Below, in pieces: positions 11,467-20,569 of a stretch of 20,569 nucleotides of DNA. Position 1 is the first letter of the stretch. The number at the start of each line of letters is the position of its first letter. The notes under the pieces were generated by a model. It had not been told where the DNA came from. It worked only from the letters and a program-made list of their open reading frames with translations, and ran no database searches. The translations under genes and the position numbers were made by a program. The stretch comes from a virus, in the IMG/VR virus record IMGVR_UViG_3300009494_000026, positions 1 through 20,569 of that record. The stretch is one strand, 5' to 3'.

Positions 11467-11805
11467 ATGCCTATTCGACCCGAGGAACGCAAGCGCTATC
11501 CGAAGGATTGGGCCGAGATCTCTCTCCGAGTGAGACGCGAAGCTCACTGGAGCTGTGAGTGGTGCGGTGCGATCGACGGGCTTCCGCACCCGACAACCGG
11601 AGCGACCGTCGTTTTGACAGTGGCTCACCTGGATCACACTCCGGAGAATTGCCAGCGCTCGAATCTGCGGGCGCTCTGCCAGAAGTGTCACAACGCCTAC
11701 GACGCCCCGCACCGTCGTGCTGGCATTGTCACGCGCCGCGTCCACGCAGAGGAAGCCGCCGGACAGATTCGGCTCTACAGGCTTGAGGATACCGGATCTG
11801 CCTAG
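11467..11805 (+). CDS. HNH endonuclease
   Basis: This 112-residue protein starts MPIRPEERKRYPKDWAEISL, a very common opening for phage HNH proteins. CEWC (about residues 31-34) and CQKC (about 75-78) form the structural zinc site. The catalytic part is VVLTVAHLDHTPENCQRSNL, with the AHLDH histidines and the Asn of NCQRSNL, followed by RALCQKCHNAYD, so the H-N-H signature is intact. The product cuts or nicks DNA. In HK97-type phages such proteins aid terminase-mediated packaging when next to terminase; here it is 6.8 kb away, beside a parS-like site, so a homing or other role is possible. An AGGAT element precedes the start. The stop is TAG 11803-11805. Confidence 0.93.
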   Translation: MPIRPEERKRYPKDWAEISLRVRREAHWSCEWCGAIDGLPHPTTGATVVLTVAHLDHTPENCQRSNLRALCQKCHNAYDAPHRRAGIVTRRVHAEEAAGQIRLYRLEDTGSA

Positions 11806-11811
11806 CCGCTT

Positions 11812-11827
11812 TGTTTCACGTGAAACA
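11812..11827. promoter_or_regulatory. Perfect parS-type centromere site
   Basis: The 16-bp palindrome TGTTTCACGTGAAACA is identical to the canonical chromosomal parS consensus recognised by ParB/Spo0J across most bacterial phyla. It lies in the 46-bp gap between the HNH gene (stop 11805) and the 57-residue gene (start 11852). No ParA or HTH-containing ParB is in the window, so host ParB is the natural ligand. An exact match by chance in 20 kb is very unlikely. Confidence 0.88.
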
Positions 11828-11851
11828 CGCCTTGACGGAAGGAGGCCGCTC

Positions 11852-12025
11852 TTGTATAGCCGTTTCGTAGTCGAGGCCGACGCGCGGGAGCTCCGCGCGC
11901 TCCTCAGAATCGCTCGCCGGCTCACAGGTAAGATCGCCAGAGGGGCGGCGCTCGAGATCTGGGCGCTTGTGTGGAATTGGACTATCGCGGGGATCGTCCC
12001 GCGAAGAGAAAGGAGTCGATCGTGA
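11852..12025 (+). CDS. Small basic protein with hydrophobic C-terminal helix (57 aa)
   Basis: A TTG start at 11852 has GAAGGAGG about 8 nt upstream. The 57-residue product (YSRFVVEADARELRALLRIA, RRLTGKIARGAALEIWALVW, NWTIAGIVPRRERSRS) begins with an amphipathic, arginine-rich helix and continues to a Trp-rich hydrophobic segment that may insert into membrane, with a basic tail. The stop overlaps the next GTG start as GTGA. No family recognised. It follows the parS-type site directly and is probably co-translated with the secreted protein downstream. Confidence 0.55.
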   Translation: MYSRFVVEADARELRALLRIARRLTGKIARGAALEIWALVWNWTIAGIVPRRERSRS

Positions 12026-12537: not shown

Positions 12538-12751
12538 GAGACAGGTCCGGACCGGGGACTCGTCACGGCGCGTTGCTTTCGCGACGAGAAGCTGGTTTAG
12601 ATCCGTGACATGTGAGCACGCCGCGCACGGATCCGAGTCCCGGCCGGGCCGTAGCGGGTTTCAGACCCGGCGGGAATCCCGCGCTAGAGCAGGCTCTCAG
12701 GCGCGCCGTTCGCCGCGAGGGGCCGTCCGCGGCTCCTCGTGCGTCTCGGAG

Positions 12752-12787
12752 GAGAACGTCGCTCAGATCGGCTCTATGGAGCTCGGA
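12752..12787 (+). repeat. 36-bp dispersed repeat, copy 2
   Basis: This copy begins GAGAACGTCGCTCAGATCGG and ends TATGGAGCTCGGA. It differs from copy 1 at two positions and from copy 3 at two positions in the first 34. It sits 12 nt after the TCCG-loop hairpin and upstream of the AT-rich patch of the candidate origin. Confidence 0.92.
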
Positions 12788-12835
12788 GGGTCTCCCCGAT
12801 CCTCGGTCGCGAGCTCGTCCGCTCCGTCCTTACTG

Positions 12836-13075
12836 CTGTTCTTTTCAATAGCTAAGTACAAAACCTAGTAGTAGTAGGGCCAGTGGATATCTGGACAACG
12901 TCCTGAGACGCCGCGCGGCTCGGGGCTTTCTCGCTTCGGCCATTGTGGACAACCTGGGGACTACGGTGGACGCCTGTCCACATCGGCCGCCGGCGGCGTC
13001 CTTGTCCCCGAAATCAATGGAGTTGCACACTGGCTATCAACCGTTTCGAGGGCTGTTATCCACAAGTTATCCACC
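12836..13075. other. DnaA-box cluster next to an AT-rich patch (candidate oriV)
   Basis: A perfect DnaA box TTATCCACA (13056-13064) and a one-mismatch copy TTATCCACC (13067-13075) are tandem with an 11-bp period, one helical turn. TGTGGACAA (12944-12952) is one mismatch from the inverted box, and CTGTCCACA (12974-12982) is two away. GTGGAC-N4-GTCCAC (12966-12981) is an inverted repeat. The AT-rich patch 12836-12877 could be the unwinding element. The arrangement fits DnaA-dependent initiation. Confidence 0.65.
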
Positions 13076-13106
13076 GGCGCTGGCGGGGCTACGGGTCGGA
13101 TCGAGC

Positions 13107-13140
13107 GAGAACGTCGCTCAGATCGCCTCTATGGAGCCCG
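13107..13140 (+). repeat. Dispersed repeat, copy 3
   Basis: 34 bp matching copy 2 except at two positions (G to C at 20, T to C at 32). It lies 31 bp beyond the last DnaA box, so copies 2 and 3 flank the box cluster. Weak similarity to copy 1 continues into 13141-13175. Confidence 0.9.
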
Positions 13141-13232
13141 TTTTAGGAGGGATTCGTCGAAATCGGCCGATCGCGGAGATCCCGCCGGCCGGAGCGCCGA
13201 CGCCGGGGCAAATCGACGGCGGCGCGGGGGAC

Positions 13233-14123: not shown

Positions 14124-14507
14124 TTAGGGCGTCGTCGAGCGCGTGACGTCGCCGGTCAGATCTACCGTTCCGACCTCGGGCGTGTAGACAGTCCCGTTCG
14201 TTAGCTTCACTTGTATGTCGTAGACCCACGACGCCGCGCCCAGGGCCGTCGTGTCAATCGGAGTGAGATCGAAGCGGAGCGCGCCTTCGACATCGACGCC
14301 GCCGGCAATAGTGATATGGCCGATCCCTGGCTCGTCGGCGGTCGTGATTATCTTCGAGACGACGGCGTCCGTGTCAGCCGCGCGGGCGTGTCGCTTGATC
14401 GTGAGCCACGCCGTTTCGAGCGCGGCAGGGAGATCCGTCACATTGCGCCGAATCTCGAGATTGTCTCCGACCACGTAGCCGGTGATCGTCCCCGTTAGAG
14501 TACTCAT
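14124..14507 (-). CDS. Phage structural protein, BppU/Ig-like domain
   Basis: This 127-residue protein has the conserved arrangement of a common tail- or baseplate-associated beta domain: GDNLEIRRNVTDLPAALETA, WLTIKRHARAADTDAVVSKI, then IDTTALGAASWVYDIQVKLT and NGTVYTPEVGTVDLTGDVT. The WLTIK...YDIQVK...YTPE pattern recurs in many phages next to tail-fibre or lysis genes, annotated as hypothetical or BppU N-terminal-like. Its ATG overlaps the upstream stop by one nucleotide (TGATG), so it is co-translated with the repeat-rich fibre protein, and it probably forms part of the same virion appendage. The precise role is inferred. Confidence 0.7.
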   Translation of the reverse strand: MSTLTGTITGYVVGDNLEIRRNVTDLPAALETAWLTIKRHARAADTDAVVSKIITTADEPGIGHITIAGGVDVEGALRFDLTPIDTTALGAASWVYDIQVKLTNGTVYTPEVGTVDLTGDVTRSTTP

Positions 14508-16102
14508 CAGTTCCCTCTCCTCGGTCCTCGGGTTTCGACATCGTCCGGGTTGACCGCGATCGTCGCGGAATCCCTGGCGGCGACGGAGATTGTGGCGGCG
14601 TCATAGCTGGCGACGGAGATTGTCGCCTCGTGCAATGCTAGGGGCTCGGGAATCACTACGGTCGCGAGCCCGGAAGCGCTTCCTTTGCCGGTAGCCGTAC
14701 CCGTTGCGCAACCGGGGACCGCGTACGTGCCGGCTCCGGAGCTGGTCCCGATCCCGGTAGCGGTGGCGGCTCCGGGGATCTCGAGGATCGGCGTTCCGGA
14801 GCTGGTCCCGATCCCGGTAGCGGTGGCCGCGCCGGGGATCTCGAGGATCGGCGTTCCATAGCTGGTCCCGATCCCGGTCGCGAGGCCGGCTCCGGGGATC
14901 TCGAGGACGGCCGCTCCGGAGCTCGAACCGATCCCGGTCGCGATGGCGGCTCCGGGGATCTCGAGGACGGCGGCTCCGGAGCTCGAACCGATCCCGGTCG
15001 CCGTCGCGGAGCCTGTTCCCACAACGGAATATGTCGCCGCTCCGGCGCTCGTGCCAATCCCGGTAGCGGTGCCCGCGCCGGGGATCTCGAGGACGGCCGC
15101 TCCGGAGCTCGTCCCGACGCCCGTCGCAATCCCGGAGCTGGCGGTTTCGAGGACGGCGGCTCCGGAGCTGGTCCCGATCCCGGTCGCGGTCGCGGAGGCT
15201 GTTCCCTCGACGGAATATGTCGCCGCTCCGGAGCTCGTGCCGATCCCGGTAGCGGTGGCGGCTCCGGGGATCTCGAGGATCGGTGTTCCGGAGCTCGTCC
15301 CGACGCCGGTAGCGGTGGCGGCTCCGGGGATCTCGAGGACGGCCGCTCCGGAGCTCGTCCCGACGCCCGTCGCAATCCCGGAGCTGGCGGTTTCGAGGAC
15401 GGCGGCTCCGGAGCTGGTCCCGATCCCCGTCGCGGTCGCGGAGCTGGCGGTTTCGAGGACGGCGGCTCCGGAGCTGGTCCCGACGCCGGTTGCAGTCCCC
15501 GACCCATTAAGCGGGGCCTCGTACGTTCCGACGCCCGAGCTCGTTCCGACGCCGGTCGCGGTCCCGGACCCGAGGAGAGCCTCCGTATAATTGACCACCA
15601 GCTTGCAGCGTAGGCTGGTGTTCTTGTTGAAGTTCGTTCCCCACGTCGACTGGCCGGTCCCTTCTTGGCTGTTGTCTGCAATTCGGAGATCGGTATCGCC
15701 CGAATCGTTGAGGGCGGCGCGGCCGGCGCCTCCGAGATCGTAACTCGTTTTATCAAGGGGCTTGATGGTCTGCGTCAGGCAGATTGTCCCGGCCGACCAT
15801 TCCCCGACGTCCCCGTTAAGAGCCGCACCGATGAACGTGCCGATGTAGTACCTGATCTGATAGATTTGTGGTTCGCCGATCGGGTCAGGGCGTCGGCGGC
15901 AGAGGAAGCTCACGGAATTGATGACAGCGCCCGCAGGGATCGCGGACGTGTCGAAGCTGAAGAACGCGCGATCTACATGATTCGCGTCTCCGTCCTGTCC
16001 TGTTCCGCACTCGATCCAGCCGGTGTGGGGTGTATACGTGGAGCCGTTCCAGTAGATACGGCCACTCTTGGCGTCATCGAAATCGAAATTAAGTACGGCC
16101 AT
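14507..16102 (-). CDS. Repeat-rich fibre-like structural protein with DNRLRE-type N-terminal domain
   Basis: This 531-residue protein has two parts. Residues 1 to about 172 resemble a DNRLRE-type jelly-roll domain (AFFSFDTSAIPAGAVINSVS is the diagnostic strand), a fold common in secreted and virion proteins. Residues about 175-480 are 15 tandem units of about 20 residues with the consensus ATATGIGTSSGAAVLEIPG; the Gly-[VI]-Gly-[TS]-Ser core repeats throughout and is expected to form a beta fibre. The C-terminus has three ATISVA-type repeats (ATISVASYD, ATISVAARD, ATIAVNPDD). It is probably a tail or head fibre, perhaps host-binding. ATG 16102 has only a weak AGGA site; a hairpin (16123-16147) precedes it. 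The repeats may vary in number by recombination. Confidence 0.75.
   Translation of the reverse strand: MAVLNFDFDDAKSGRIYWNGSTYTPHTGWIECGTGQDGDANHVDRAFFSFDTSAIPAGAVINSVSFLCRRRPDPIGEPQIYQIRYYIGTFIGAALNGDVGEWSAGTICLTQTIKPLDKTSYDLGGAGRAALNDSGDTDLRIADNSQEGTGQSTWGTNFNKNTSLRCKLVVNYTEALLGSGTATGVGTSSGVGTYEAPLNGSGTATGVGTSSGAAVLETASSATATGIGTSSGAAVLETASSGIATGVGTSSGAAVLEIPGAATATGVGTSSGTPILEIPGAATATGIGTSSGAATYSVEGTASATATGIGTSSGAAVLETASSGIATGVGTSSGAAVLEIPGAGTATGIGTSAGAATYSVVGTGSATATGIGSSSGAAVLEIPGAAIATGIGSSSGAAVLEIPGAGLATGIGTSYGTPILEIPGAATATGIGTSSGTPILEIPGAATATGIGTSSGAGTYAVPGCATGTATGKGSASGLATVVIPEPLALHEATISVASYDAATISVAARDSATIAVNPDDVETRGPRRGN
14685..15560 (-). repeat. Tandem repeat array of about 60-bp units inside the fibre gene
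   Basis: About 15 units of 60-66 bp, most sharing GGGGATCTCGAGGA and CCGGAGCT elements on the plus strand, encode the 20-residue protein repeats. Some larger blocks recur, such as the units around 15101-15170 and 15341-15410, which points to block duplication. The array also keeps other frames open, which makes long but false antisense ORFs. Confidence 0.85.
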
Positions 16103-16186: not shown

Positions 16187-16606
16187 CTATTCGAGCCGGA
16201 AGTCTAGATCGGCGACCAGGAACTTGAAGATCCCGCCGATCCCGACGACCTGAGACGCGTCGAGCACACCGTGGAAGAGCAGATTCCCGAGGGTCGCGGC
16301 GTCGTGGACGCCGAAGTGAGTCACGGTCCCCCACGCGACGGTCGCGGTCGGAAACACGATGTCGTCACTGTTCTCGACAAGGTGGCCGATGCCGTCGACG
16401 ACGGCGAGCTCCCAGTCGGGACTCCCTCCGCCGTTCGCGTAGACACGGACGCGCGCGTAGCTCCCGCCGGAGACCTCGGTCCCGGTATCCGCGTCGGTCG
16501 GGTCGCTCGTGTAGAGCGAGACCCACGTGTCAGGGGCCACGTATGCTACGCCATTGAAAACCTCGTCCAGGAGATCACTCTCGAGATAGTCGGACAGCTT
16601 ACTCAT
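16187..16606 (-). CDS. Phage minor structural protein (tail/head appendage family)
   Basis: This 139-residue protein follows a pattern seen in many phages: SDYLESDLLDEVFNGVAYVA opening, then VSLYTSDPTDADTGTEVSGG, YARVRV, and the second half DDIVFPTATVAWGTVTHFGV and FHGVLDASQVVGIGGIFKF. These proteins are virion-associated and commonly annotated as tail-fibre or minor structural proteins. GAAAGGAGCAGATA precedes ATG 16606, and the start overlaps the portal stop by one nucleotide (TAATG). The segment around TATVAWGTVTHFG has a paralogue in the N-terminus of the hydrolase at 4780-5745. It may form a small jelly-roll spike or decoration; the exact position in the virion is not known. Confidence 0.78.
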   Translation of the reverse strand: MSKLSDYLESDLLDEVFNGVAYVAPDTWVSLYTSDPTDADTGTEVSGGSYARVRVYANGGGSPDWELAVVDGIGHLVENSDDIVFPTATVAWGTVTHFGVHDAATLGNLLFHGVLDASQVVGIGGIFKFLVADLDFRLE

Positions 16607-18198
16607 TATCTGCTCCTTTCAAGTGCCGGATTGATTACGGGTTCCTTCTGTGATTCGTGGTCTCCGGACAAGCGGGTCTCGGTCACGTCGTCTCGGCCGT
16701 CGCCGTTCCCGCGGTCCTCGACGATCGCCGCGACATCATCCTTCGTTGCAGGTTCGGAGACCGGGGCCGAGTCTTTGAGCACGACGCCGTAGCCGGCCGC
16801 GAGCTCGGTCTCGGCTTTGATCTCCGCGAGGACATCCTCGAATTCAATTCCTTGCTCCGCGAGGATCGACGTGCGGGACGTGAGCTGATTCGAGAGTGCG
16901 AGGACGGCTCCCTTCGCTTCTTTCTCCGGGTCGATCGCGCTCCACCCACGTGGACGGTGTCGGACGGCCATGTAGCCGGCGGGGTTCCGCGAGCCGAGCC
17001 GGAGCGCGCCGGTCAGGAGCGCGAGCTTGATCCACTCGGAATAGATCGGACGCCGCCACCAGTCGATCACGTCCTCTTGGACTTGCCGCCAGTCGTCGCG
17101 CATTATCAGCGCGAAGGCGCGGAACGAGGAGTAGTTGACGTCCGAAGCGTCGTTGAGCAGGACATTGGAGAAGATCGAGACGCCGCTCGCGATCTTGCGA
17201 CCCATCTGTTTGATGAAAGCGCCGAACTGGCTCGTCGGGTGCGTCGGAGCCCACTCCTTGAAGGAGTAGCCGTCCTCGAGGATCTCGAACGAGCCCGGCG
17301 CGGCTTGCATCTTGGCGGTCGTGCCCTCGGACGCTAGCGACGGGCCGATCGACGGATCGACCTTTTCGAAGAAGCCCATTTTGGCTGAGGCGACGCGCGA
17401 GGCGATCGCTTCGCTCTCCTCGTACGCGTCGAGCATGTGCGCCGCGACCATAATCGAGTGAAGCCACGTCACGCCGCGCGTCTGATTGACGCGGTCCGGG
17501 CGGTAGATGTGGACGATCTCGTCGGCCGGGACTCGGTAGCGGTTACGCGCGACCATTCCCGTAGCCGTCGAGGGCTTGTCCCAAAAGTGGTAAGCGACCG
17601 GAGCGCCTACGGAGTCGACCTCGACGCCGAGCCGGATCTCGTTCGAGCCAGCGCGAGCCGCACGGTTGAATCGCTCGTCGAGTAGATCGACGTCGATCGG
17701 CTGGAGCGCGAGCCCGAAGCGGTTAGTCTTGACGCCGCGCCAGAAGCGGACGCAGATCTCGCCGTCTGTGGCGAGCGTTCGGAGGAGGAGTCCTTCGAGG
17801 GGCCGGAGTGCCAGCTTCCCGTCGAGCGTGACCTTGCCACGTGACCATTCGACCCACGCCGCTTCGATCTTTGCGTTAGTTTCGGTGTCGAGCTTGCCGT
17901 CCTTGCGGACGAGGGCTTGCAGTCTGATCCCGGCGGGACCGATCACGTTCGCGACGAGCAGTCGGAGATAGCGCTTGATGTAACTGTTGTTTCTGGCGAG
18001 CTCGCGAGCTCGCGCTCTCAGCTTACGGAGGTCTCCACGAATATCGTCGTCGGCCGATCGCGCGTTGGCGATCCAATCGAGCAAGAGTCGGTTTGATCCC
18101 GCGCCGGAGAATGCGCTTCGCTGGAGGGGACCGCGGAGCTCGCGGCCGAGCGCTCGGAAAGCTCTCCTGAGCCGATGGTGAAACGGGCGTCGTGTCAT
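16606..18198 (-). CDS. Portal protein, lambda gpB family
   Basis: This 530-residue protein (lambda gpB has 533) forms the dodecameric ring at one capsid vertex through which DNA is packaged and ejected. Family features are an N-terminal basic region, RARARELARNNSYIKRYLRL followed by LVANVIGPAGIRLQ (the classic N-x-x-G-x-G-x-x-L/P start of the core), VEWSRG, the TDGEICVRFW strand, LQPIDVDLLDERFN and EIVHIYRPDRVNQTRGVTWL. The C-terminal part is charged (DVLAEIKAETELA, then an acidic/Arg-rich tail). ATG 18198 overlaps the connector stop as ATGA. It transcribes away from the protease/capsid genes, which is unusual since the portal is normally upstream of and co-directional with them. Confidence 0.93.
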   Translation of the reverse strand: MTRRPFHHRLRRAFRALGRELRGPLQRSAFSGAGSNRLLLDWIANARSADDDIRGDLRKLRARARELARNNSYIKRYLRLLVANVIGPAGIRLQALVRKDGKLDTETNAKIEAAWVEWSRGKVTLDGKLALRPLEGLLLRTLATDGEICVRFWRGVKTNRFGLALQPIDVDLLDERFNRAARAGSNEIRLGVEVDSVGAPVAYHFWDKPSTATGMVARNRYRVPADEIVHIYRPDRVNQTRGVTWLHSIMVAAHMLDAYEESEAIASRVASAKMGFFEKVDPSIGPSLASEGTTAKMQAAPGSFEILEDGYSFKEWAPTHPTSQFGAFIKQMGRKIASGVSIFSNVLLNDASDVNYSSFRAFALIMRDDWRQVQEDVIDWWRRPIYSEWIKLALLTGALRLGSRNPAGYMAVRHRPRGWSAIDPEKEAKGAVLALSNQLTSRTSILAEQGIEFEDVLAEIKAETELAAGYGVVLKDSAPVSEPATKDDVAAIVEDRGNGDGRDDVTETRLSGDHESQKEPVINPALERSR

Positions 18199-18737
18199 TG
18201 TTCTGTCCCTGGTCTGACAAACTCGACCACGCCGAGGCGCGAGACCTTGTCAGGATTCTTGACCCGCGCGAGCCGCGCCGCGAAACGGTCACGGAGCTTC
18301 ACAGCTTCCTCAATCGGGATCTTCGTCACGGCGCGGCCGGCGATCGCGTACGATTGCATGCCGCCGGTGAGGCGTCCCTCGATGTGCGCTTCGAGGACCG
18401 GGATCACTCGCTCAAGCCAGAGCTGAGAGCTCCCGTCGGTCGCGGCCGCGAGATTGTCGTTCACGGTCACCTTGCCGAACGCAACCTCGTAGATGTCGCC
18501 GGAATAGGAGACGCGCTCGACCCACTGATAGAAACCGGGCTCAATCGCCGCGGTCGCGGGGATCGTCACGACAAAAGCGTCGCCGTCGGCGACCGCTTCG
18601 AAGTCGGCGACGATCACGCCGGCGATGTAGAGAGTGAGCGTCCAGGTCGACGCGGGGTAATCGGTGAAGCTCTTCGTGTAGGCGACCGTCGTCCCGGCTG
18701 AGAAGGATTCCGGAAGCGCTGTCAGTTCGTTCGGCAT
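18195..18737 (-). CDS. Head-tail connector: Ig-like domain plus gpW-like domain
   Basis: This 180-residue protein has two regions. Residues about 1-92 (LPESFSAGTTVAYTKSFTDY, PASTWTLTLYIAGVIVADFE, FYQWVERVSYSGDIYEVAFG) form the common phage Ig-like domain with its conserved W-x-L and Y-x-W strands. Residues about 105-165 (LEAHIEGRLTGGMQSYAIAG, RAVTKIPIEEAVKLRDRFAA) resemble lambda gpW, the small joiner that closes the portal after DNA packaging; its L-x-G and basic-arm motif is recognisable. Fusion of the two is common in phages with gpA-type terminase. The start ATG 18737 has no good Shine-Dalgarno site (upstream reads CCTGACCCC), which suggests leaderless or unusual initiation near the 18761-18803 palindrome. 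The stop overlaps the portal start. Confidence 0.75.
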   Translation of the reverse strand: MPNELTALPESFSAGTTVAYTKSFTDYPASTWTLTLYIAGVIVADFEAVADGDAFVVTIPATAAIEPGFYQWVERVSYSGDIYEVAFGKVTVNDNLAAATDGSSQLWLERVIPVLEAHIEGRLTGGMQSYAIAGRAVTKIPIEEAVKLRDRFAARLARVKNPDKVSRLGVVEFVRPGTEQ

Positions 18738-18880
18738 GGGGTCAGGCTATCCGGACGCGCGCTCTCGCGTCGACTCCAATATGATTGGACTCGACGCGAG
18801 AGCTCCCGTTGACGGATATTGAAGCCGACCCGCAGTCGAGGACTGCTTACCGCTGGCGCACTCAGGGAGCAGACAATGCT
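18738..18880. promoter_or_regulatory. Divergent intergenic region between connector and protease
   Basis: 143 bp separate two operons transcribed away from each other: connector/portal leftward (ATG 18737) and protease/capsid rightward (ATG 18881). The main content is a 43-bp near-perfect palindrome (18761-18803). The remaining 77 bp before ATG 18881 hold a weak GGGAG element 12 nt upstream and no clear sigma70 promoter that I can identify. Confidence 0.55.
18761..18803. repeat. 43-bp near-perfect palindrome in the divergent region
   Basis: Left arm GCTCTCGCGTCGACTCCAAT (18761-18780) and right arm 18784-18803 are reverse complements with a single mismatch and a 3-bp spacer (ATG). It would make a very stable hairpin in RNA from either strand, or a cruciform in DNA. 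Possible roles are an operator for both operons or a trace of an inversion; a bidirectional terminator is possible too. Confidence 0.88.
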
Positions 18881-19936
18881 ATGAAACCAGAAACGAGAAC
18901 GGTCAAGGTTCCGCGGAAGCTGACGCGGGAGTTCGAGATCGAGATCGGCGAGCGCCAGGGCGACGAGGGCGCGGAGCTCTACCCGATCTCGCTGACGAGC
19001 GAGTTTCCTGTCAAGCGCTGGTCCTGGGACGGACCTTACTTCGAGATTCTCTCTCACGATCCGGCCGACGTCGATCTCTCCCGCGCGGAGTCGGGTCTCC
19101 CGCTCCTGAAGAATCACATTACCAGCCAGCAGATCGGGAGCGTCCGCGGTGTGATGCTCGACACTCAGGCGCGCCGCACTCGCGGAATGCTCTCGTTCGC
19201 CTCGATCTCGATCGCGCGAGATCAAAAGGCGCTGGTCGACGAGGGCCACCTGAAGACGAGCTCCGTCGGTTACTTCGTTACGGGGATGAAGCTCCTCTCA
19301 ACAGACGAGAACGACGTCCCGACGTACAATGTTTCGTGGGCGATCGCGGAGGAATCACTGACGCCGGTCCCCGCGGATCCGACGGTCGGCGTCGGGAGGA
19401 GCGCCGAGGAAGCGATCCTAGCAATAAGAAGTGTAGCCGCTGACGAGCTGGTCGAGTTCGAGGTCGCGGACCACGTCCGCGCGGAGAGGCCGGCCGACGA
19501 GGGAGGAGAAGAAGAAATGAAGGACAAGGACGGACGAGAGGTCGGGACGGTCACTCCCACGCCGACGCCGGCTCCGGCACTCGCGGAGATCGCGCGCGAC
19601 TACGGCAAGGAAGCCGCGGAGATCGCGGGGCTTTGCGCCGCGCACGATCGCGCGGACAAGGCGGAGGAGTACATTCGGGAGCAGGTCGAGCCGGGCGTCG
19701 TCGCGAGGATGATCCTCGACGAGATCCGGACGGCCGGTCCCGCACAGCCGGCGAGTGAGGGTCTCGACGTGCCCGCGCGCGACGTCGCGCAGTACTCGGT
19801 CCGGAGGGCGATGGGAATCGCCGCCGGGATCGAGCAGCGGAACGGTATGGAGGCCGAGCTTCACGACGAGCTGATCGTGAAGGGCGCGAAGCCGACGCAC
19901 GGCGGCGTCCTCGGTTCCGTGGCGGCTCCGCGGTAA
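18881..19936 (+). CDS. HK97-type prohead protease (S78), fused frame broken before capsid
   Basis: ATG 18881 gives 351 residues; GGGAG lies 12 nt upstream. Residues 1-175 are the protease: FPVKRWSWDGPYFEILSHDP, the catalytic His79 in LPLLKNHITSQQIGSV, Ser128 in KTSSVGYFV, and the conserved EESLTPVPADP turn near residue 158. The enzyme cleaves scaffold and capsid N-termini during head maturation. Residues 180-345 are acidic and helical (DYGKEAAEIAGLCAAHDRAD, YIREQVEPGVVARMILDEIR), like the scaffold/delta domain preceding a capsid protein. The frame ends at TAA 19934-19936, but the next frame continues the expected capsid sequence, so this is probably the 5' part of a protease-capsid fusion broken by one base near 19913. 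Confidence 0.9.
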   Translation: MKPETRTVKVPRKLTREFEIEIGERQGDEGAELYPISLTSEFPVKRWSWDGPYFEILSHDPADVDLSRAESGLPLLKNHITSQQIGSVRGVMLDTQARRTRGMLSFASISIARDQKALVDEGHLKTSSVGYFVTGMKLLSTDENDVPTYNVSWAIAEESLTPVPADPTVGVGRSAEEAILAIRSVAADELVEFEVADHVRAERPADEGGEEEMKDKDGREVGTVTPTPTPAPALAEIARDYGKEAAEIAGLCAAHDRADKAEEYIREQVEPGVVARMILDEIRTAGPAQPASEGLDVPARDVAQYSVRRAMGIAAGIEQRNGMEAELHDELIVKGAKPTHGGVLGSVAAPR

Positions 19937-20569
19937 CGACGAGCTCTCGCCGGCACGTCAGCGCGCGCTCGGGACGACCGAGCCTACCGGCGGCGCTACG
20001 CTCGTCGGGACTCAGGTCATGCCCGACATGATCGACCTACTCCGGAACAAGACGCGCGTCCTCGAGCTCGGCGCGAAGCTCTATCCGGGGCTTCAGGGTG
20101 TCGTGCAGTTCAACAAGAAGACGGGCGAGCCCACGGTTCACTGGATGGAGGAGAATCCCGCGACTCCGGCCGCAGGCTCTACGCCGAGCTACGGCTACGT
20201 GACCATGTCGCCGAAGACGATGATCGGCTCGGTCACGATCCCGCGCCAGCTTCTGACGATGGCGTCGATCGACGTCGAGGCCGACGTCCGGAACGATCTC
20301 GCGCTCGGTCACGCGACGGCGTTCGATCTCGCCGCGATTCACGGGACCGGGACGGACAAGCAGCCGATCGGGATCTACTCCGCGGCCGACGTGCAGGCTC
20401 AGGCGTTCACGGGGATTCCGGATCTCCCGGAGCTGACGTCCTGCGTCGGCAAGGTCGCGGACGTCAACGCCGACTTCGGCGCGCTCGCGTGGCTGACGAC
20501 GCCGCTCATGGCGGCGCTCATGTCGCGGACGCCGCTGATCGGTACGACCTTCCCGGCGTTCATCTGGAA
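19914..20569 (+). CDS. Major capsid protein, HK97 fold (partial; right edge)
   Basis: This frame has no start of its own in a good position; it is read from about 19914 by shifting +1 from the protease frame. It runs to the right edge of the window without a stop. It begins VPWRLRGNDELSPARQRALG and TTEPTGGATLVGTQVMPDMI, then DLLRNKTRVLELGAKLYPGL, VQFNKKTGEPTVHWMEENPA, TMSPKTMIGSVTIPRQLLTM and IHGTGTDKQPIGIYSAADV. The LVGTQ strand, the LRN..V..LGA block, the W..E.P.TP loop, the SPK..G..T.PR.LL strand and the HGTGTDKQPIGI loop are hallmarks of HK97-fold capsids, which form the icosahedral shell. The N-terminal delta domain would be the end of the upstream frame. Confidence 0.88.

Follow-up and report, generated by a model that had tools for sequence, protein, structure and literature searches.

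An exact chromosomal-type parS site without an encoded reader in a phage genome fragment, and orphan parS sites across phages

An exact copy of the 16-bp chromosomal parS consensus is present in a phage genome fragment that encodes neither ParA nor a ParB with an HTH domain. The fragment, IMG/VR record IMGVR_UViG_3300009494_000026, is linear and 20.6 kb in size, and its whole length of 20,569 nucleotides is called the window in the following. We give a probability of about 60% to the reading that ParB of the host loads at the phage parS and that the phage genome is thereby attached to the ParA/SMC machinery of the host, in the manner of SGI1. The bases of this reading are the exactness of the site, its conservation in the closest relative (L225), the parS type of the putative host, the absence of ParA and HTH-ParB and a conserved origin; the points against it are that the window has one site, that there are relatives with no parS, that the link to the host is by binning and that the record is fragmentary.

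The parS site of the window

The palindrome TGTTTCACGTGAAACA at positions 11812-11827 matches the chromosomal consensus with 0 mismatches over 16 bp. The first-pass annotation had described it as the canonical bacterial parS, which is correct, and had asked for further copies: a scan of the whole record identified this site as the only one in the 20,569-nt window. The number expected by chance is about 0.02 per window, even when up to three mismatches are allowed (100 shuffled windows), and a chance origin of the site is ruled out by these shuffles together with the palindrome controls described below. It is likely that host ParB binds here, and in the reading that we prefer the window parS works as a place where the chromosomal ParB of the host binds and is loaded.

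The site lies within a 46-bp gap between two genes of the plus strand. Upstream is an HNH endonuclease gene (11467-11805; phrog_1571, E 9e-25), with its stop codon (11805) 6 bp before parS; downstream, starting with TTG at 11852, is a small conserved ORF of 57 amino acids that was recognised from its sequence and is preceded by the Shine-Dalgarno motif AGGAGG at 11840-11845 (motif and ORF: 11840-12025). The block at 11831-11962, around the start of the small ORF, is 89% identical in L225.

The DNA had been called a phage genome at first pass, and this is correct: the window carries genes for both terminases (small and large), the portal, the prohead protease, the capsid and a GH108 endolysin, and its GC content is 0.62-0.71 throughout. 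The minus strand carries the portal gene and one at 18195-18737 (16606-18737), and the plus strand those for terminase, protease and capsid (18785-20569); this strand split is not an assembly error because relatives show the same arrangement. The protein encoded at 14507-16102 contains numerous repeats of the ATGIGTSSGA type and matches no family.

No parS reader is encoded in the record

The window record has no match to PF13614, and the KGGxGK motif is absent from all six reading frames of the window and also from a 36.5-kb relative (G001). The first-pass annotation, which had reported no ParA in the window and a ParB-domain protein without a visible HTH, thus holds on both counts. The latter protein, encoded at 248-1054 on the plus strand, has a ParB-CTPase fold: it matches the ParB-like PHROGs phrog_620 (E 1e-32) and phrog_498, but it has no Pfam match at E<=1e-3 and hence no HTH_ParB, and it is not a parS reader. 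One of the ParB-fold PHROGs that it matches is a DNA methyltransferase family. According to a recent survey, ParB-fold proteins are common in phages, are often fused to other domains, for example methyltransferases, and have roles beyond segregation (PMC12704722). In the window, the gene is adjoined by one for a radical SAM protein (979-2193), and in L224 (13551-17584), of the relative G001, it is QueD-, FolE-, QueC- and tRNA-ribosyltransferase-like genes that adjoin the ParB-fold protein, which suggests 7-deazaguanine DNA modification. As the window is a linear fragment of 20.6 kb, the absences of ParA and HTH-ParB hold for this fragment; within that scope a self-encoded ParABS system is rejected, since neither component is present in the record.

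Conservation of parS in relatives

The closest relative that we found is L225, a contig binned with the MAG 'Candidatus Eisenbacteria CSMAG_500'; the IMG/VR scan contained none that is closer. Its portal is 87% identical to that of the window, and the DNA of the two is about 76-89% identical over seven blocks, the longest with 83.6% identity over 3.5 kb. The first-pass annotation had named the absence of the site from all related phages as evidence against its reading. In L225, parS is again exact (16 of 16 bases) and sits at the corresponding position, ahead of the small ORF that L225 shares with the window. The flanks of the L225 site differ from those in the window (it forms GCCGATTGTTTCACGTGAAACAATCGGC), its distance to the small ORF is about 100 bp longer and the HNH gene does not adjoin it, while the phage genes on both sides of the window parS are collinear with L225. 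The diverged flanks and the lack of the HNH gene beside the site indicate that the 16-mer was kept while its surroundings turned over.

Other relatives, identified by portal searches of IMG/VR, have portal identities of 56-66%. No parS was found in L189, L190 and L153/G001, in which the best match has 5-6 mismatches, and the other common natural parS type, TGTTCCACGTGGAACA, was sought in the distant relatives and not found, with the exception of a site with one mismatch in L197. Relatives at 58-68% portal identity have kept the origin (see below) and have no parS; the phage family therefore does not need parS. Relatives identified via terminase or HNH proteins added nothing on synteny, with L136, L146 and L153 as the exceptions, and blastn of the parS region against INPHARED gave no match.

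The putative host has a matching parS

The MAG that holds L225 contains the exact parS twice: once on the phage contig and once just upstream of parA in a parA-parB locus, where there is also a second parS with one mismatch, again just upstream of parA. Site and putative host therefore match, and the orphan phage site equals the parS of another replicon, although the host is linked to the phage by metagenome binning and its assignment is hence tentative. Phage parS and putative-host parS share the 16 bp only and no flanks, so the former was not copied over as part of a host segment. ParB is also present in MAGs holding more distant relatives, and several of these MAGs carry TGTTCCACGTGGAACA near parB instead.

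An oriC-like origin close to parS

A 695-bp gap between convergent genes (12538-13232) contains a cluster of DnaA boxes and is a likely replication origin. Allowing one mismatch, there are six DnaA boxes within 12541-13222, two of them exact, compared with 0.43 in shuffled sequences. The cluster announced by the first-pass annotation, which had put it 1.2 kb from parS, is therefore real; it starts at a distance of about 1.06 kb, and the origin is 1.05 kb away. The origin core (12866-12898, minus strand) resembles a basal unwinding system: it consists of two tandem DnaA boxes, the second of which is degenerate, followed by GGCC and the DnaA trios (CTA)4, and an AT-rich stretch (12801-12900, 51% GC) comes after the trios. 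Bacterial oriC has the same order in its basal unwinding system: tandem DnaA boxes, a GC-rich spacer, DnaA trios and an AT-rich stretch. The 33-bp core has 0-2 mismatches among the window, L225, L189, L190 and L153; in 240 strands from other phage loci, no match has fewer than nine. The phage origin thus has the element order of its bacterial counterpart and is conserved across the phage family; it differs in sitting between convergent genes and in being known here from sequence.

Further boxes are TTGTCCACA (exact; 12944-12952, minus strand) and the tandem pair TTATCCACA (exact) and TTATCCACC (13056-13075, plus strand). The core is flanked by a 34-nt direct repeat on the plus strand, with copy 1 at 12752-12785 and copy 2, 94% identical, at 13107-13140; it reads GAGAACGTCGCTCAGATCG.CTCTATGGAGC.CG, has similar motifs in relatives and is a possible iteron or regulator site.

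The proteins of G001 that were scanned include head, tail, ParB-fold and FolE-, QueD-, QueC- and tRNA-ribosyltransferase-like proteins, and none was recognised as belonging to a polymerase, primase, helicase or integrase family. Given the oriC-like build and this lack of a recognised replication gene in G001, phage replication is probably started by host DnaA, and the phage family probably relies on both the DnaA and the replisome of its host. An oriC-like DnaA origin near parS is consistent with a replicon that draws on the machinery of its host.

Orphan parS sites are found in many phages

In IMG/VR, TGTTTCACGTGAAACA was found in at least 120 stretches and TGTTCCACGTGGAACA likewise in at least 120, compared with 1 and 0 stretches for the respective reversed-palindrome controls. 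In INPHARED, which was searched with a tandem query for which about 17 bases must match, there were 213 records for TGTTTCACGTGAAACA and 99 for TGTTCCACGTGGAACA; the reversed palindrome had 0 matches and a CACGTG-core palindrome with two positions changed per arm pair had 1. Many of the INPHARED entries of Listeria phages LM 4-11-1 and LM 4-14-1 are short unannotated fragments with parS that could be host DNA. As some entries of both databases are possibly host DNA, all of these counts, including the 213, are upper figures; the complete isolates stand. Plasmids (7.3 Gb) had only 24 matching records, some of them megabase-sized.

The named organisms among the TGTTTCACGTGAAACA matches in INPHARED are mostly phages of Microbacterium, Listeria, Gordonia, Lactobacillus, Arthrobacter and Bacillus. 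Escherichia is outside the ten commonest names, beyond which each name has at most six records; this fits with enteric bacteria, which are not known to have a chromosomal ParABS.

HTH_ParB was found in 0 of 99 parS-bearing records tested, and a ParA-type ATPase in one of the 99 tested for ParA (window included). The sites are also enriched outside ORFs: 64 of 131 sites (49%) of the TGTTTCACGTGAAACA type and 44 of 115 (38%) of the TGTTCCACGTGGAACA type are located there, compared with an expected 11-12% (p 8e-27 and 2e-12). A tyrosine integrase is present in nine of the 47 long records tested, which include the window and one relative with no parS.

Among the genomes that were checked in full, Gordonia phages Orchid and Woes have two exact copies each, Roseobacter phage DSS3P8 has three, Glutamicibacter phage Voltaire has two in tandem and Lactobacillus phage Bacchae has two plus one with a single mismatch; apart from this one site, the isolates and complete genomes contain no intermediate matches. 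The site is also found in a Herelleviridae phage. The densest case is inovirus bajarodino 6 (PQ006135.1), which has six exact parS within 5.9 kb (at 635, 662, 1414, 2857, 4096 and 5628) and no ParA or ParB; related bajarodino viruses have similar numbers of parS places. Microviruses, whose DNA is single-stranded, have sites of one parS type or the other, for example Microviridae MG945524 at 828-843. In Clavibacter phage CMP1 (1357-1708) parS is directly 3' of an HNH gene, as in the window, and in Microbacterium phage Kozie an HNH gene is about 1 kb before parS.

Orphan parS sites in hundreds of phage records suggest that the host chromosome machinery is probably borrowed more often than has been noticed, and their presence in tailed phages with no tyrosine integrase, in filamentous phages and in microviruses suggests that they may have uses beyond prophage maintenance. 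Tentatively, and with the odds slightly against us, we propose that an orphan host-type parS is a widespread strategy of tailed phages, filamentous phages and microviruses and that, with its host-style DnaA origin, the phage of the family studied here is replicated and positioned like a small mimic of the host chromosome.

What the phage parS may do

In the established mechanism, CTP-dependent loading of ParB at parS is followed by its spreading as clamps, and ParB activates ParA and loads SMC. In the reading that we prefer, host ParB would load at the phage parS and form CTP clamps that spread over the phage DNA, and the spread ParB would tie the phage genome to the ParA gradient and the SMC loading of the host. 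Host DnaA would start replication at the oriC-like origin, to which parS would add borrowed positioning and segregation, making it a piggyback centromere. That partition is the purpose of the phage parS is a possibility to which we give not quite an even chance. Many of the other parS phages may be virulent, and partition to daughter cells has no obvious benefit there. The setting of the proposed ParB binding and its consequences may be an episomal prophage, lytic infection or both. The first-pass annotation had proposed that the phage could, as an episome, hitch to host segregation or could disturb the host chromosome by titrating ParB; this interpretation is supported in part, by the host-type site with no phage reader, its conservation in L225, the putative host and the nearby origin, and the episome, the ParB binding and the disturbed segregation stand as proposals.

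Two alternatives share the first step of this reading, binding by host ParB, and differ in the later ones. ParB and SMC could be recruited in lytic growth to condense, localise or shield the phage DNA, with no partition. The occurrence of parS across unrelated phage types, many with no integrase, would agree with this, and SMC loading by ParB-parS is established for chromosomes (PMC10197239); however, SMC on phage DNA is a proposal that the sequence cannot separate from our main reading, and we regard recruitment of this kind as rather unlikely. A decoy function, in which the many copies of a replicating phage titrate ParB off the host chromosome and stall segregation in lytic growth, appears unlikely too: the absence of a detected tyrosine integrase from 38 of the 47 long records and the range of carriers, from the Herelleviridae phage to a microvirus and the inovirus with six exact copies in 5.9 kb, are compatible with a decoy, but the window has one site per genome, and ParB would spread and load SMC on titrating phage DNA as well, which makes titration hard to separate from recruitment.

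The site could also be another palindromic element that equals parS by coincidence, for example the operator of a phage repressor, and its position 24 bp before a start codon would suit an operator; we consider this very improbable, because the enrichment is specific to the two natural parS types, with 0-1 matches for altered CACGTG and reversed palindromes, and because the site is about 100 bp farther from the same ORF in L225. Nor is it an intrinsic terminator, as there is no T run 3' of the site. Finally, bacterial chromosomes are the main source of the parS motif, and a parS with no role could have been carried in with a host segment or by an assembly error. We reject such a capture or chimera as having very little probability: the window shares only 16 bp with the putative-host parS, the flanks being unrelated, and the phage genes to its left and right are collinear with those of L225, with the 16-mer kept while its neighbours diverged.

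If ParB binding to the phage parS is confirmed, the consequences would be broad. With many phage lineages carrying the parS of their own host, ParB and SMC would become infection factors, the parS type would be a signal for host prediction, and a change of 16 bases in cultured Gordonia, Microbacterium, Lactobacillus and Ruegeria phages would allow an immediate test of what ParB does on phage DNA.

Comparison with known systems

ParB-parS is normally treated as a device of chromosomes and plasmids whose owner encodes the reader. The phage site is identical, over all 16 bp, to the parS of chromosomal ParABS systems such as Spo0J-parS of Bacillus subtilis, and the parA-parB locus of the putative host adjoins an exact parS; the phage record differs in having one site and neither parA nor a parS-reading parB. 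Centromere sites in phage genomes are known from the extrachromosomal prophages P1 and N15, which have their own parABS. The same is true for extrachromosomal prophages of mycobacteria (PMC7157519), and, in contrast to the window with its host-type site and no reader, all of these encode their own ParA and ParB and have parS sequences of their own. In the open-access literature, which was the scope of our search, we found no description of an orphan host parS in phages; PMC12416852, considered as an account of a phage episome with parS, does not cover one. The nearest known case is SGI1, whose parS-like elements hijack the ParABS of IncC plasmids (PMC10954446). Like the window, SGI1 is a mobile element with ParB-binding sites of another replicon, and it gains stability via the ParABS of that replicon; its target is a plasmid system and the effect has been measured, whereas the window is a phage with a site of the host-chromosome type, known from sequence alone.
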